From: an uncultured Bacteroidota bacterium
GTDB lineage: Bacteria; Bacteroidota; Bacteroidia; Chitinophagales; LD1
Reading direction: 5' to 3'
Assembly: GCA_903861145.1 (NCBI GenBank)
Contig: CAIOTH010000128.1
Span: 1 to 57,755, forward strand
DNA length: 57,755 nucleotides
Shown here in pieces: positions 1,408-44,712 of this stretch (the stretch's first letter is position 1; every line of letters begins with the position of its first letter). Below the pieces are notes generated by a model. The model did no database searches and was not told where the DNA came from. It was given only the letters and a program-made list of their open reading frames with translations. The translations under genes and the position numbers were made by a program.

Positions 1408-1773
1408 TTAATAATCGCCCTTTCCTGGAACACAATGACGAACACCTCCTCTGGGATTTGATGTATCCCCTTTATAACGCGGGATTACATGGCAATGAAA
1501 ATGAAATACCGATTGACCCGCTGCTTCACCGCAATTCATTCCGATATTATAACCATCAGGCTTAAACTCCAATTCAATTGACCGTTTGGCTTCCAGAATA
1601 ACTTCTCCCAAGCTTTCTCTCTCTATAGCTGAAAGCTCGAAGTAATCAACCTTTAGTTCATTGGAAATAATCAGCGAATGACCTGGTGAAACAGGATAAA
1701 GGTCTCTTACAATGAAAAAGTATTCCCCCTGATAAAGAATCCGCTCCTTTGGGATGTTATTGAATGTCATCAT
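1408..1773 (-). CDS. HIT-family nucleotide hydrolase/transferase
   Basis: A 121-residue histidine-triad protein. The catalytic motif HFHCHV lies at residues 91-96, followed by IPRY, and the C-terminal tail is GGVRHCVPGKGDY. HIT enzymes act on nucleoside phosphoramidates, dinucleoside polyphosphates or adenylylated compounds. It begins 23 bp after the HNH nuclease stop on the same strand, so the two form a two-gene operon (HNH first). That pairing in a defence island suggests a joint role, for example removing an adenylylated or nucleotide product, but the substrate is unknown. The length is typical for a stand-alone HIT protein. Confidence 0.88.
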   Translation of the reverse strand: MMTFNNIPKERILYQGEYFFIVRDLYPVSPGHSLIISNELKVDYFELSAIERESLGEVILEAKRSIELEFKPDGYNIGMNCGEAAGQSVFHFHCHVIPRYKGDTSNPRGGVRHCVPGKGDY

Positions 1774-1796
1774 AAATATTAAATGTTGAAATGGGT

Positions 1797-2909
1797 TCAG
1801 ATGTTCCAGGCTTCATAACCACGATTCGAGATTAAATAATTACAACTGCTTTGTAACTGATTGATTGCGCTTTTATGCCAGTTGCTAAAAGGGTTATTCC
1901 CCAACAGAGCAACTTGAATTTCCTTTTGAAAGCGCTGAGGGCGATTGGCATGGAGCAATTCCCAATATTGGATTATCAAATCCTTTCTTTTTTCAATCAA
2001 ATCGGCAGAAGGAATCTTATCCCGCTTTTGATTATTTGTTGTTGATTGAGAAGGGAGGAGATTCCACAAATCATTATTCTTCCAGACAGAAAATGGAATC
2101 ACATGGTCAATATCATAACTTGTAATTGCTTTGCCTGTCCAGACACAAAGGATTTTGCCTTCTTTACTAAGCTTATCTCTAAAAACTTTGTCCGATTCCC
2201 TCATATCTCTTTCACTTATCGGACTTCTCAGGACTTCCTTTACAACTTTATCTATTGATAAATTTCCCCCTGAAGCATTAACCGAAAATTCCGCCCACTT
2301 AAACAGAATAGAATCCTGACCGCTGATGAAGCTTCCCAAAAATTTGAATGCTTCGTAGTATTCAACAGGAATTGAAAAAGTGCCAAAACTGCTTATCAGG
2401 AATTCAATATCAATGTTACCTGCTTTCCCTTTTCGCTTTCCAGGCTCAAATTGAAAGATTGAATAGTAATCATTGCTGAGAGACCGACCAATGTATTTCA
2501 TCGGCATTTTCGTGATTGTTTCGCTCAATTTCCTTGATAACTCCAGGAAAGCTGGTTTTAATTCTTTCGGAATGCCTTTATTCTTTAGGTCGTTGTAAAA
2601 AGCAGAAAATCCATTGTTCCCCCTATAGGAGTGAATGATTTTTCTGAACTGAACTTCAAAAGCAAGATTTGTTTCCCCGTTGATTTGAGGGATATATGTG
2701 TCCGACTCCAAAATAGGATAGTAATAAATCATCCATTTTTCAATCAGCAAGCCAGTAGGAATTTTAACTCTGTCCTTCGAAAACGAAATGAACGGAGAGT
2801 TGTCCTGAATGATGTCAATAACACCTCGCAATAGGGCAAACTTGTAAGTGGTGCTCTTACTATCTCGCTCGATTATTTTGCTGATGTTAGAAAAGACAGT
2901 GTTGTTCAT
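1797..2909 (-). CDS. HNH endonuclease domain protein
   Basis: A 370-residue protein with a long uncharacterised helical N-terminal region (1-240) and a C-terminal HNH domain (about 255-300). The sequence CVWTGK leads into YDIDHVIPFSVW, then WNLLPS and NNQKRDKIP, giving the His/Asn metal and catalytic positions of the HNH_2-like fold (IDH 267-269). There is no zinc CxxC pair. It is probably a DNA nuclease or restriction-like effector. It is transcribed leftward with the HIT gene and diverges from the PLD gene at 3030. The N-terminal part may carry the sensing or specificity function, which cannot be read from sequence. Confidence 0.8.
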   Translation of the reverse strand: MNNTVFSNISKIIERDSKSTTYKFALLRGVIDIIQDNSPFISFSKDRVKIPTGLLIEKWMIYYYPILESDTYIPQINGETNLAFEVQFRKIIHSYRGNNGFSAFYNDLKNKGIPKELKPAFLELSRKLSETITKMPMKYIGRSLSNDYYSIFQFEPGKRKGKAGNIDIEFLISSFGTFSIPVEYYEAFKFLGSFISGQDSILFKWAEFSVNASGGNLSIDKVVKEVLRSPISERDMRESDKVFRDKLSKEGKILCVWTGKAITSYDIDHVIPFSVWKNNDLWNLLPSQSTTNNQKRDKIPSADLIEKRKDLIIQYWELLHANRPQRFQKEIQVALLGNNPFSNWHKSAINQLQSSCNYLISNRGYEAWNI

Positions 2910-41964: not shown

Positions 41965-42690
41965 CTAATAGTAAACGATATTGTTCGAATCGGCTTGCAT
42001 GCCTTTTTGGTAAGTTGCTTGTGATATTACACGGCCTTTATCGTCGAATTTGTATGAAAAGATCACATCAAGGCTATCGCCTTTTGAAGTAACCTGTACT
42101 GCTTTTTTCATCAGGTTTTTCGAATCTGTTCCACGGAATTTCATACCTTGGTTTTCAGGTGAAAGTGAGTTTAACTTATCGCTATAGTAATCGAAATACA
42201 CGGTTGCCATTGGTTTCATGGTTTCGTCAGATATTACGCGTGATACCTCGTTTCCGTCTTTAAACACAAAAGACGTAGTACGCTTTAACTGGCCACCCAA
42301 AAATTCCTGGGTAAGTGTATTGTGTCCTTCAGCATCGTGGGTATTAACGGTTAATATGCTTCCCATAGGATTGGCCATTTCAAAACTATCTACGTATCCT
42401 GCTGCCGAAAGGTGTAAGGTTTGCATTCTTGGCTCGGGACTTTGCGGGTTAGTTACCGATTGGGTTATGGTATTGCCTGCATAAGTAAACGTTACTTTGG
42501 TTGTATCAGGACTACCACCGTAAACCTTGATAACACTTACTTTATTATCGGGCGAGTAGGTAAACGCGGTGGTTTGCCCTTTAGCGGAAATCATGGCTTT
42601 AACCCTGTAAGCTGTGGTTGAGCCGCCTTTATTACATGCTGTAAGTATTGTGGCAAAAGCAATTACAGCAAATAGCATTATGTTTTTCAT
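41965..42690 (-). CDS. Lipoprotein with YD/DUF4595-like repeats
   Basis: 241 residues from the Met at 42690; the ATG at 42723 adds 11 residues unlike a signal peptide. The signal peptidase II signal is LFAVIAFATILTAC, so the Cys is lipidated and the protein anchored in a membrane. The mature part repeats strand pairs of the type FTYSPDNKVSVIKVY, FTYAGNTITQSV, LHLSAAGYVDSFEM, FVFKDGNEVSRVI, FSYKFDDKGRVISQ, as in DUF4595 or RHS/YD-like barrels. Function unknown. It diverges from the cysE leader. Confidence 0.8.
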   Translation of the reverse strand: MKNIMLFAVIAFATILTACNKGGSTTAYRVKAMISAKGQTTAFTYSPDNKVSVIKVYGGSPDTTKVTFTYAGNTITQSVTNPQSPEPRMQTLHLSAAGYVDSFEMANPMGSILTVNTHDAEGHNTLTQEFLGGQLKRTTSFVFKDGNEVSRVISDETMKPMATVYFDYYSDKLNSLSPENQGMKFRGTDSKNLMKKAVQVTSKGDSLDVIFSYKFDDKGRVISQATYQKGMQADSNNIVYY

Positions 42691-42797
42691 GGTTAAATCG
42701 TTTATTTTGATTTTAGGGCGCAAGGATACGAAAAAGAATTGTTTTAAGCGCCCCCTATTGTATTTTTATAACCATAATTGCTTATTTTAGCATTATA

Positions 42798-42869
42798 ATG
42801 AAACCAATCTCTCAAATATGTGCCTGCTGTTGCTTCTTTTATAGAGGGGGAAAGGGCATTTATGTATAA
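42798..42869 (+). CDS. Cysteine-rich leader peptide of the cysE-cysK operon
   Basis: A 23-codon ORF (ATG 42798, TAA 42867-42869) with four Cys in five codons: residues 8-12 are CACCC (42819-42833). It precedes a strong intrinsic terminator (42901) that itself precedes the serine acetyltransferase ATG (42941). The regulatory amino acid matches the product of the operon (cysteine), which is the hallmark of ribosome-mediated attenuation. The AAAGGG at 42851-42856 can pair with CCCTT at 42903-42907 in the 5' arm of the terminator and so form an antiterminator. A ribosome stalled at the Cys codons leaves this segment free; one at the stop codon covers it. Confidence 0.8.
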   Translation: MKPISQICACCCFFYRGGKGIYV

Positions 42870-42900
42870 CGTTAAATAAACCGAAAACAATAAATTACCG

Positions 42901-42932
42901 AACCCTTCGCCGTTGCGAGGGGTTTTTTATTT
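42901..42932 (+). terminator. Attenuator terminator upstream of cysE
   Basis: A 10-bp stem, AACCCTTCGC / GCGAGGGGTT (one T-G wobble), has loop CGTT and is followed by TTTTATTT. It ends less than 10 bp before the cysE start, so transcription must read through it to express cysE-cysK. This makes it an attenuator and not a 3' terminator. Confidence 0.85.
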
Positions 42933-42940
42933 AAAACAAG

Positions 42941-43762
42941 ATGATTATGCAAACAGAGACTGTTAAACAAATTGACCTTTCGAAACTGCCGAGCCGGATA
43001 GTGGCATATAGGTTTTTGGATGAATTATTAGATTTTCTGTTTCCCGTAGAAGCGGGTTTTGGACTTAACGATGATTTATCGGATGAGCGAACGGAGCGAC
43101 TGAAAAGAATATTAATGGAAGTAATTAGGCCCTTAAAGGATAAGTTGCCAATACCGGAAGAGGTGGTGCTGCAAACATTTTTCGAGGGCTTGCCTGCGGT
43201 TTATAATAAATTGATTTTAGATGCCCGTGCCTTTGTGACATCGGACCCGGCAGTTGAGTGTATTGAAGAAGTTATAGTAGCGTACCCGGGCTTTTATGCT
43301 ATTTCGGTTTACCGCCTGGCACATGAATTATATAAACTTAAAGTGCCTATACTGCCGAGGTTAATAACGGAATATGCCCATAATAAAACGGGTATTGATA
43401 TCCACCCGGGAGCCAAAATTGGCAACTCGTTTTTTATTGACCACGGCACGGGCGTTGTTATTGGCCAAACCACTGTTATTGGCGATAACGTTAAGTTATA
43501 CCAGGGTGTAACTCTTGGCGCTTTAGCAGTGAGGAAAGAAACACAAGGGGCCAAGCGACATCCTACTATTGAGAACAATGTTATTATTTACGCCGGTAGC
43601 TGCATATTGGGTGGTGAAACGGTAATTGGACACGATAGTGTAATTGGCGGAAATGTATGGCTAACACAAAGTATTCAACCTTACTCGGTTGTTTATCATA
43701 AAAGCGATATAAAAATACGTGATAAGAGCGATTTGAATGAAGTGATTGATTTTATTATTTAA
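42941..43762 (+). CDS. cysE: Serine O-acetyltransferase
   Basis: 273 residues. ATG at 42941; a second in-frame ATG at 42947 is possible. A helical N-terminal domain (1-150) is followed by a left-handed beta-helix of hexapeptide repeats: GIDIHPGAKIGNSFFIDHGTG, VVIGQTTVIGDNVKLYQGVTLGA, then IENNVIIYAGSCILGGETVIG. It transfers acetyl from acetyl-CoA to serine, giving O-acetylserine for cysteine synthase, encoded 36 bp downstream. The longer N-terminus resembles the EpsC/plant-like SAT class. It is expected to be controlled by the upstream attenuator and by cysteine feedback. Confidence 0.93.
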   Translation: MIMQTETVKQIDLSKLPSRIVAYRFLDELLDFLFPVEAGFGLNDDLSDERTERLKRILMEVIRPLKDKLPIPEEVVLQTFFEGLPAVYNKLILDARAFVTSDPAVECIEEVIVAYPGFYAISVYRLAHELYKLKVPILPRLITEYAHNKTGIDIHPGAKIGNSFFIDHGTGVVIGQTTVIGDNVKLYQGVTLGALAVRKETQGAKRHPTIENNVIIYAGSCILGGETVIGHDSVIGGNVWLTQSIQPYSVVYHKSDIKIRDKSDLNEVIDFII

Positions 43763-43797: not shown

Positions 43798-44712
43798 ATG
43801 AAAGCAAACAACATTCTTGAAACCATTGGCAACACCCCGCACCTACGTATTAATAAGTTATTTGGCCAACATGAAGTTTGGATAAAACTTGAGCGTCAAA
43901 ACCCAGGCGGAAGCATTAAGGACCGAATTGCATTATCTATGATTGAAGATGCCGAAGCAAAAGGTTTGCTGAAGGCAGGCAGTATAATTATTGAACCAAC
44001 CAGTGGTAACACCGGTATAGGGCTGGCCATGGTGGCGGCCGTAAAAGGATACAAGCTTGTTTTGGTAATGCCCGAATCGATGAGTATTGAGCGCAGAAGA
44101 CTGATGAAAGCTTATGGAGCTACTTTTGAATTGACGCCCCGCGAAAAAGGGATGAAGGGGGCTATTGAAAAGGCAAAGGAATTGGCGGCTGCAACCCCTA
44201 ACTCGTGGATACCGCAGCAATTTGATAACCCCGCCAATGTCGACGTGCATGTAAAAACTACCGCGCAGGAAATATTGAAAGATTTTCCTAACGGTGTTGA
44301 TTACCTAATTACCGGTGTGGGCACCGGTGGCCATATTACCGGTGTTGGAAGGGTGCTGAAAGAGAAGTTCCCTAACACAAAGATATTTGCTGTAGAGCCA
44401 GTGCTTTCACCGGTAATAAGCGGTGGGCAACCAGGGCCACACCCCATACAAGGTATTGGTGCCGGCTTTATACCATCTAACCTGGATATTACAATACTTG
44501 ACGGAGTGATACAGGTTACCAAAGAAGAAGCTTTTGATTATGCGCTACGCGCAACTAAAGAAGAAGCCCTTTTTGGTGGAATATCATCGGGTGCTACATT
44601 AGCTGCTATAGCAAAAAAGTTACCTGAAATACCTGCCGGTAAAATCATACTTGGCTTTAATTACGATACAGGCGAGCGATACTTATCTATTGAGGGCTTA
44701 TTTGAGTTGTAG
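43798..44712 (+). CDS. cysK: Cysteine synthase (O-acetylserine sulfhydrylase)
   Basis: 304 residues, PLP fold-type II. The PLP lysine is K41 in [14 protein letters not shown], the phosphate/substrate loop [11 protein letters not shown] (68-78), and the PLP-phosphate glycine loop [15 protein letters not shown]. It combines O-acetylserine with sulfide to give cysteine. It lies 36 bp after cysE, in one operon behind the Cys-rich leader. The CysK/CysM subtype is not separable by eye; [10 protein letters not shown] is shared by both. The length is normal. Confidence 0.95.

Follow-up and report, generated by a model that had tools for sequence, protein, structure and literature searches.

A predicted cysteine-responsive transcription attenuator with a polycysteine leader peptide upstream of cysE-cysK in an uncultured Bacteroidota bacterium

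How might an uncultured bacterium of the phylum Bacteroidota (lineage Bacteroidia; Chitinophagales; LD1) adjust cysteine synthesis to cysteine supply? This question was raised by a locus in the window, i.e. the whole stretch of 57,755 nucleotides analysed here (contig CAIOTH010000128.1), in which a very short ORF with clustered cysteine codons and a hairpin precede a cysE-cysK gene pair. Amino-acid operons use leader peptides rich in their own product, as in attenuators of the trp, his and leu type (Yanofsky), and the sequence-only reading of this locus had proposed a cysteine-responsive attenuator. The features of the locus are as follows.

42783-42790, plus strand: −7 box TATTTTAG of the TAnnTTnG type, 7 nt 5' of the leader ATG, from an upstream alignment
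42798-42869, plus strand: leader ORF of 23 codons plus stop, peptide MKPISQICACCCFFYRGGKGIYV, from sequence, translation and relatives
42819-42833, plus strand: Cys-Ala-Cys-Cys-Cys, the regulatory codons and proposed stall site, from sequence; the cluster is kept in relatives
42844-42856, plus strand: leader segment complementary to the terminator 5' arm, GAGGGG at 42844-42849 with AAGGG at 42852-42856 as an alternative, from a pairing comparison and folding
42844-42908, plus strand: predicted antiterminator hairpin, −15.5 kcal/mol in a fold of 42841-42911
42900-42928, plus strand: intrinsic terminator with an 11-bp stem (42900-42910/42915-42925) and a T-run (42923-42928), from sequence and folding
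42941-43762, plus strand: cysE, serine O-acetyltransferase by homology and context, from a hexapeptide-repeat match
43798-44712, plus strand: cysK, PLP-dependent enzyme of the cysteine synthase type, from a PALP match (PF00291, E 7.7e-74)

The leader ORF extends from the ATG at 42798 to a TAA stop at 42867-42869. Its codons 8-12 read C-A-C-C-C, placing Cys at codons 8, 10, 11 and 12. The 5' neighbour, lipoprotein-like by eye, is encoded divergently on the minus strand, so that the leader is intergenic. The sequence and the domain matches confirm the earlier description of a 23-codon ORF, with Cys at four of five consecutive codons, ahead of cysE-cysK, and the coordinates given for the element were correct to a base or two. 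The reported spacer is also present, although the distance from the stop to the first stem base is 30 nt rather than 31. Nine distinct short ORFs with a C.?C.?C cluster were found on the two strands of the window, the leader included. A Cys-cluster ORF alone is therefore weak evidence, and the weight of this element comes from its combined features and its relatives. Own-genome protein matches to the leader peptide (L002 and L003) were discarded, as by eye they lie inside other reading frames.

Folding of the terminator stem gave −17.2 kcal/mol (z −4.75), and none of 200 shuffled sequences was equally stable. The hairpin and T-run before cysE had been described as a 10-bp stem ending less than 10 bp from the gene; both are there, but the stem has 11 bp and 12 nt separate the T-run from the cysE ATG (42941). 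In the minimum-energy antiterminator, GAGGGG (42844-42849) pairs with CCCTTC (42903-42908), with an additional upper stem. The pairing of AAAGGG (42851-42856) with CCCTT that had been suggested holds insofar as AAGGG (42852-42856) is able to pair, but we rejected it as the main antiterminator segment and retained it as an alternative, since the minimum-energy fold prefers GAGGGG. The energy of the window antiterminator is only modestly better than that of shuffled sequences (z −1.67, 14 of 200 as good), and other shuffle tests on the window alone gave p values of 0.115 and 0.035. Comparison of 42500-43300 with Rfam produced a best score of 23.6 bits against a cut-off of 50 and no family at gathering score; at the leaders of 12 other loci no leader family reached its cut-off, the one match being a tRNA. 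A riboswitch or T-box was rejected on the basis of these Rfam results for the window and the 12 loci.

We consider, with a probability of about 0.83, that this element controls cysE-cysK by ribosome-mediated transcription attenuation in response to charged tRNA-Cys. Transcription would begin at or just 5' of the leader ATG. When cysteine is ample, the ribosome would pass the Cys codons and reach the stop, thereby covering 42844-42856 and allowing the terminator to form. When Cys-tRNA is short, the ribosome would stall at codons 8-12 with the end of its footprint near 42844, and the freed segment would pair with the emerging 5' arm of the terminator. The terminator would then be blocked and cysE-cysK made. 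Conservation, matched arms and gene context support this interpretation, which is that of the sequence-only reading, and from such features we infer promoter use, leader translation, stalling, termination and the cysteine response itself.

Sixty relatives were searched for cysE, which yielded 24 strong loci in the window's family, the window included. Leaders with at least three clustered Cys precede cysE at 20 of these 24 loci, and the leaders of L015 and L018 have fewer (CC and CCRWC, respectively). No Cys leader was found in the 1500 nt upstream of cysE at L006, which comes from the same genus (G011) and encodes a CysE that is 81% identical; a GC-rich, repeat-like stretch is seen there in place of the leader. 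L009 begins at a contig edge, and a Cys leader from the same genome ends another contig, L076. At L014 the cysE leader begins about 34 nt after the end of a tRNA gene (2461-2534, minus strand). Two more cysE loci with leader and terminator were identified in Cryomorpha ignava (L040, two Cys) and in a Saprospiraceae MAG (L056). The set of 23 cysE loci used below consists of 21 family loci, window included, together with L040 and L056. Outside this set are L006 and L028-L031 (leader absent), L009 (contig edge) and L024 (Ns in the terminator). L042, with CCC at the end of its ORF, was dropped when no terminator was found.

Terminators were chosen by requiring TTTT after the stem. The distance from the last Cys codon to the terminator is 45-66 nt in the 23 loci, and that from the stop to the terminator is 25-43 nt in 22 of them and 16 nt in L040. 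The best-pairing leader segment starts 9-19 nt past the last Cys codon and, L056 excepted, its 3' end is 4-21 nt short of the stop codon's end. A ribosome on the last Cys codon would thus leave the segment more or less exposed, and one at the stop would cover it or come close to doing so. Apart from its Cys run the peptide shows little conservation, and its length and sequence vary widely. Among 36 named loci, six had a leader with a terminator before cysE, four of them in genomes already among the relatives, and the Flavobacterium and Polaribacter cysE loci in this group had no such combination. A class-wide survey found a leader with a terminator at 2 of 28 cysE loci. Taken with the 6 of 36, this result indicates that most of the cysE loci examined outside the window's family are without the element.

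If the leader segment and the terminator arm interact, each segment should match the arm of its own locus. Pairing with the own arm was stronger than with swapped arms in the 23 loci (mean −10.9 vs −9.4 kcal/mol, permutation p 0.00025; a helix-score version also gave p 0.00025), in 33 leaders that belong to other genes or other families (p 0.00005) and in a thinned set of 32, made up of eight cysE representatives and a single leader for each combination of family, gene and tandem position (−11.7 vs −9.0, p 0.00005), although these p values are optimistic because all of the sequences are related. Covariation is apparent in individual segment/arm pairs such as GCTGAAGGG/CCCTTCAGT (L020), TGGAAAGG/CCTTTCCA (L142), GGTGGAG/CTCCACC (L151) and CGGGAGG/CCTCCCG (L194). 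The terminator arms are diverse (CCCTTCGC, CCCTTCAG, CCTTTCCA, CTCCACC, AGCCTCTC and CCTCCCG), and the segments change along with them. Cys codons, terminator and antiterminator with compensatory changes, which had been suggested as something to look for in relatives, were thus found in the 23 cysE loci and the swap tests. Taken locus by locus, about half of the 23 failed to beat their own shuffles at 0.05 in the pairing test, and 13 of 23 failed to do so in a second single-locus shuffle test.

The effect of ribosome position was modelled on nascent RNA. In this model the ribosome covers the RNA as far as 13 nt downstream of where the A-site codon starts, and the remainder is folded up to the terminator loop. 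The probability that the terminator 5' arm is paired in the 23 loci averaged 0.89 with a Cys codon in the A site and 0.12 with the ribosome at the stop, the latter value being low partly because less RNA remains for pairing. In 22 of the 23 loci the value exceeded 0.5 at Cys and fell short of 0.5 at the stop. The single miss was L056, in which leader and terminator are kept but no antiterminator appears in the model (0.03). Shuffling of the stretch after the Cys codons gave a set mean of 0.52 (sd 0.06), and the maximum of 200 sets was 0.71 compared to the observed 0.89. For the 33 other leaders the values were 0.73 at Cys and 0.19 at the stop, with Cys exceeding stop in all 33, and their shuffles gave 0.51 with a maximum of 0.59 among 100 set means. 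The modelled pairing therefore bears out the suggestion that the antiterminator is free when the ribosome stalls at Cys codons and masked when it reaches the stop. Without a ribosome, arm pairing was mixed (mean 0.61 over the 23 loci), and on the question of whether an untranslated leader terminates the model is accordingly silent. A protector (1:2) hairpin appears in the window fold, but the mean of 0.61 does not support such a hairpin as a general feature across loci. Observations against the attenuator include the modest folding at single loci, the missing leader of L006, the sparse Cys codons of L015 and L018, the antiterminator missing from L056, and the rarity of the element at cysE loci outside the family.

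A box of the TAnnTTnG type is located no more than 24 nt from the leader ATG in 20 of the 23 loci, at distances of 4-10 nt, whereas 300 shuffles gave a mean of 1.2 loci and a maximum of 5. The TAnnTTTG box of Flavobacterium psychrophilum spans −12 to −5 according to the available text of PMC9723704, such that a distance of 4 puts the A of the ATG at +1. The distance of 7 in the window then predicts a transcription start near 42795 and a 5' UTR of about 3 nt. The leader transcript is thus predicted to be leaderless or nearly so, and given the conserved −7 box before the leader ATG, a transcription start downstream of 42932 is unlikely. In the wider set of leaders the box occurs 4-11 nt from the ATG in 14 of 33, a count without a shuffle control, and all four second leaders of tandem pairs lack it. 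A leader ORF predicted to be leaderless is notable in that leaderless or very short 5' UTRs are just 3.7-5.5% of those mapped in the phylum, i.e. 5.5% in F. psychrophilum and, for UTRs shorter than 10 nt, 3.7% in Bacteroides thetaiotaomicron (PMC7366714), as given in the portions of these reports available.

The short distance between hairpin and gene is relevant to the strongest competing explanation, namely attenuation at the level of translation, with a hairpin serving chiefly to mask the first gene's start region, as reported for mycobacterial polycysteine sORFs. The accessible descriptions of the mycobacterial Cys attenuators call them translational. Besides the 12-nt gap in the window, the likely cysE start lies 8-25 nt past the T-run in 21 of the 23 loci, and distance consequently provides no argument against hiding of the start region. 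Termination is favoured, however, by the stems of the 23 loci, which are as strong as intrinsic terminators and carry a T-run, although TTTT was a condition of their selection. In addition, the first in-frame ATG is 53 and 56 nt past the T-run in L017 and L056, and before sulfite reductase genes the hairpin may sit about 150-320 nt upstream of the gene. We therefore regard control of translation as improbable, and a terminator that would act on transcription as the better description of the hairpin.

Related leaders were also detected before other sulfur genes. The first MAFFT alignment set the stem one column off in the L019-L025 group, and the RNA model was built from 13 of 18 rows. This model, from 13 loci, detected leaders in other families. 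Weak matches were not counted on their own, since a C.?C.?C leader could be seen by eye at the match in only about 6 of the 36 loci L093-L128. The own-genome matches C52 and C107 were rejected, no Cys leader being visible at either; C52 precedes a gene for a base-excision repair protein. Leaders were found before a gene for a NirA-type nitrite/sulfite reductase (below NCBIfam cut-offs; Pfam NIR_SIR) together with a tetrapyrrole methylase, before metY with an alpha/beta-hydrolase gene resembling metX, before a gene for a cystathionine gamma-synthase/lyase type enzyme, before a peroxiredoxin gene followed by cysH (L140), and before a 141-aa ORF without a Pfam match followed by a MoeZ-like gene. 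A further leader precedes cysM (below the NCBIfam cut-off) with genes for a Prok-JAB protein, a ThiS-family carrier and a ThiF-rhodanese protein, a set familiar from mycobacterial CysO-dependent cysteine synthesis. At L142 a leader with seven consecutive Cys is followed by a gene (1533-2573, plus strand) for a RimK-like ATP-grasp protein without a Pfam match, and this leader suggests that the protein has a role in cysteine or thiol metabolism. A Met- and Cys-rich leader with a terminator, MMMCMCTCITRMYHIYHGC, begins at position 1648 of L111 on the plus strand (G251), and by eye it is followed by an OsmC-like ORF and, more distally, by an aspartokinase-like ORF; this is perhaps a different attenuator.

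Over the class, 26 of 47 sulfite reductase loci have a leader. This number combines 12 of 30 loci by the strict rule, six added under a looser Met/Cys rule, two with a single Cys, and 8 of 17 further loci, the leaders of which are absent from the swap, ribosome and Met counts. A Cys leader precedes cysM at 5 of 11 loci over the class, the query's own locus included. The sulfite reductase leaders differ in codon content from the others. An internal Met lies within 4 residues of the Cys cluster in all 19 sulfite reductase leaders counted (mean 2.2), compared to 5 of 24 cysE leaders and 3 of 7 cysM leaders (19/19 vs 8/31, Fisher p 1e-7), a p value that is optimistic because tandem pairs and near relatives were counted singly and three leaders (L191, L195 and L196) came from the looser rule; without these three the count is 16 of 16. 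Sulfide feeds both Cys and Met, and Met-plus-Cys leaders thus fit sensing by codons.

This codon content also bears on the idea that the signal is not Cys-tRNA but a metal, the redox state or a drug, to which the Cys-rich nascent peptide itself would respond by stalling the ribosome. Although Cys runs could bind metal and one related leader precedes the peroxiredoxin-cysH operon, there is little conservation of the peptide outside the Cys run, and the addition of Met in every counted sulfite reductase leader is as expected if codons for both products of sulfide are read. Sensing by the peptide is accordingly very unlikely in our judgment, and we retain the reading in which charged tRNA would be the signal.

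The same-genus genomes G013, G005 and G002 lack a close cysE match (G013 has a partial one, E 5e-4). These three genomes carry cysM behind a Cys leader (L146, L150 and L151, respectively). Two of these leaders end in GYWW(T/A) and the third in GYGWR, and in G013 the JAB and ThiS-ThiF genes lie downstream of cysM. The presence of cysM with a Cys leader in genomes of the same genus without a close cysE indicates that the pathway behind the attenuator was exchanged. Two attenuators in series precede one operon at L169, L170, L137, L145, L235, L243, L245 and L250, each leader (Cys or Cys/Met) having its own terminator. At L137, L169, L170 and L145 the second leader begins within a few tens of nucleotides of the first T-run and has no −7 box. 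At L252 (G120) two polycysteine leaders with terminators lie in series about 0.8 kb upstream of a cysM match. An ORF with its own terminator could in principle be a separate transcription unit for a small functional cysteine-rich protein unrelated to cysE control. We give this idea hardly any credence, in view of the Cys codons and the terminator-complementary segment, which persist through wide variation in length and sequence, and of the unit staying with cysteine genes across unlike operons, namely cysE-cysK for the window and cysM-JAB-ThiS/ThiF for G013.

The combination of leader and terminator was also sought upstream of 252 control genes from the window and part of the fetched loci, with L001-L033, L070-L092 and L149 onward excluded against repeats. 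A Cys-cluster ORF was present no more than 420 nt upstream of 23 of these genes, and the ORF with a terminator preceded 15: cysE (6), sulfite reductase (3), cysM (2), metY, the cystathionine gamma-synthase/lyase type gene, peroxiredoxin-cysH and the RimK-like ATP-grasp gene. Fourteen of the 15 are sulfur or cysteine genes, and none of the remaining 237 control genes had leader plus terminator. As several loci were chosen for their leaders, the proportion of 15 in 252 should not be read as a frequency, but the absence of positives elsewhere is a fair control. The chance occurrence of a short Cys-rich ORF beside the ordinary terminator of another transcript, while consistent with how common such ORFs are when counted alone (nine in the window, 23 of 252 genes), has next to no likelihood against the 14 sulfur or cysteine genes among 15 positives, the 0 of 237 others, and the steady spacing and matched arms of 23 cysE loci.

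The element resembles attenuators of the trp, his and leu type in having a product-rich leader peptide, a stop near the antiterminator segment and mutually exclusive antiterminator and intrinsic terminator. It differs from them in the use of Cys or Cys plus Met, in its occurrence in Bacteroidota, in a predicted leaderless start, in the tandem arrangement of some leaders and in the protector hairpin, which is not generally supported here. Actinobacterial Cys leader peptides without conserved terminators were described by Seliverstov et al. in 2005 (PMC1262725), and cysteine-responsive polycysteine leaderless ORFs of mycobacteria by Canestrari et al. in 2020 (as related in PMC13236596, PMC9094748 and PMC9031893). 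On the basis of the portions of these sources available, the mycobacterial sORFs share with the present element a polycysteine short ORF, a leaderless arrangement (predicted here), a position before cysteine or sulfur genes and attenuation by cysteine supply (likewise predicted here). Compared by these descriptions, they are translational and have no conserved terminator hairpin (PMC1262725), whereas an intrinsic terminator and a matched antiterminator are found here.

A predicted Cys attenuator with a terminator is also described in the available text of PMC8632094, uORFC-8-2 before cysS in Rhodobacterales. It shares Cys codons in a short ORF, a terminator with a U run and proposed ribosome-mediated attenuation. 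As described there, uORFC-8-2 precedes a cysteinyl-tRNA synthetase gene in alphaproteobacteria and has two tandem Cys codons in the first stem, whereas the Cys clusters here are mostly longer, lie upstream of the pairing segment and precede biosynthetic genes. In the same phylum, F. psychrophilum has leader-peptide attenuators before amino-acid biosynthesis operons, and the part of PMC9723704 available names no cysteine leader. A search of mostly open-access literature for cysteine attenuation in Bacteroidota found no account or experiment. Comparison across loci makes a strong case for predicted ribosome-mediated transcription attenuation, a known mechanism, in Bacteroidota with Cys or Cys plus Met as the signal, an intrinsic terminator and a putatively leaderless leader.

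We think it probable that in many Bacteroidota much of the supply of cysteine and sulfide is governed by a family of cis-acting leaderless polycysteine attenuators and not by a shared repressor or riboswitch. Codon content would then be the signal (Cys for cysE-cysK and cysM, Cys plus Met for sulfite reductase), some attenuators would act as serial pairs, and the element would be kept or regained when the pathway is exchanged. An attenuator family read by codons may name the genes that it regulates, including one for an unassigned ATP-grasp-like protein. If this interpretation is correct, two attenuators in series would multiply repression, and the tandem attenuators together with the Met-plus-Cys leaders raise the question of how two amino-acid signals combine.
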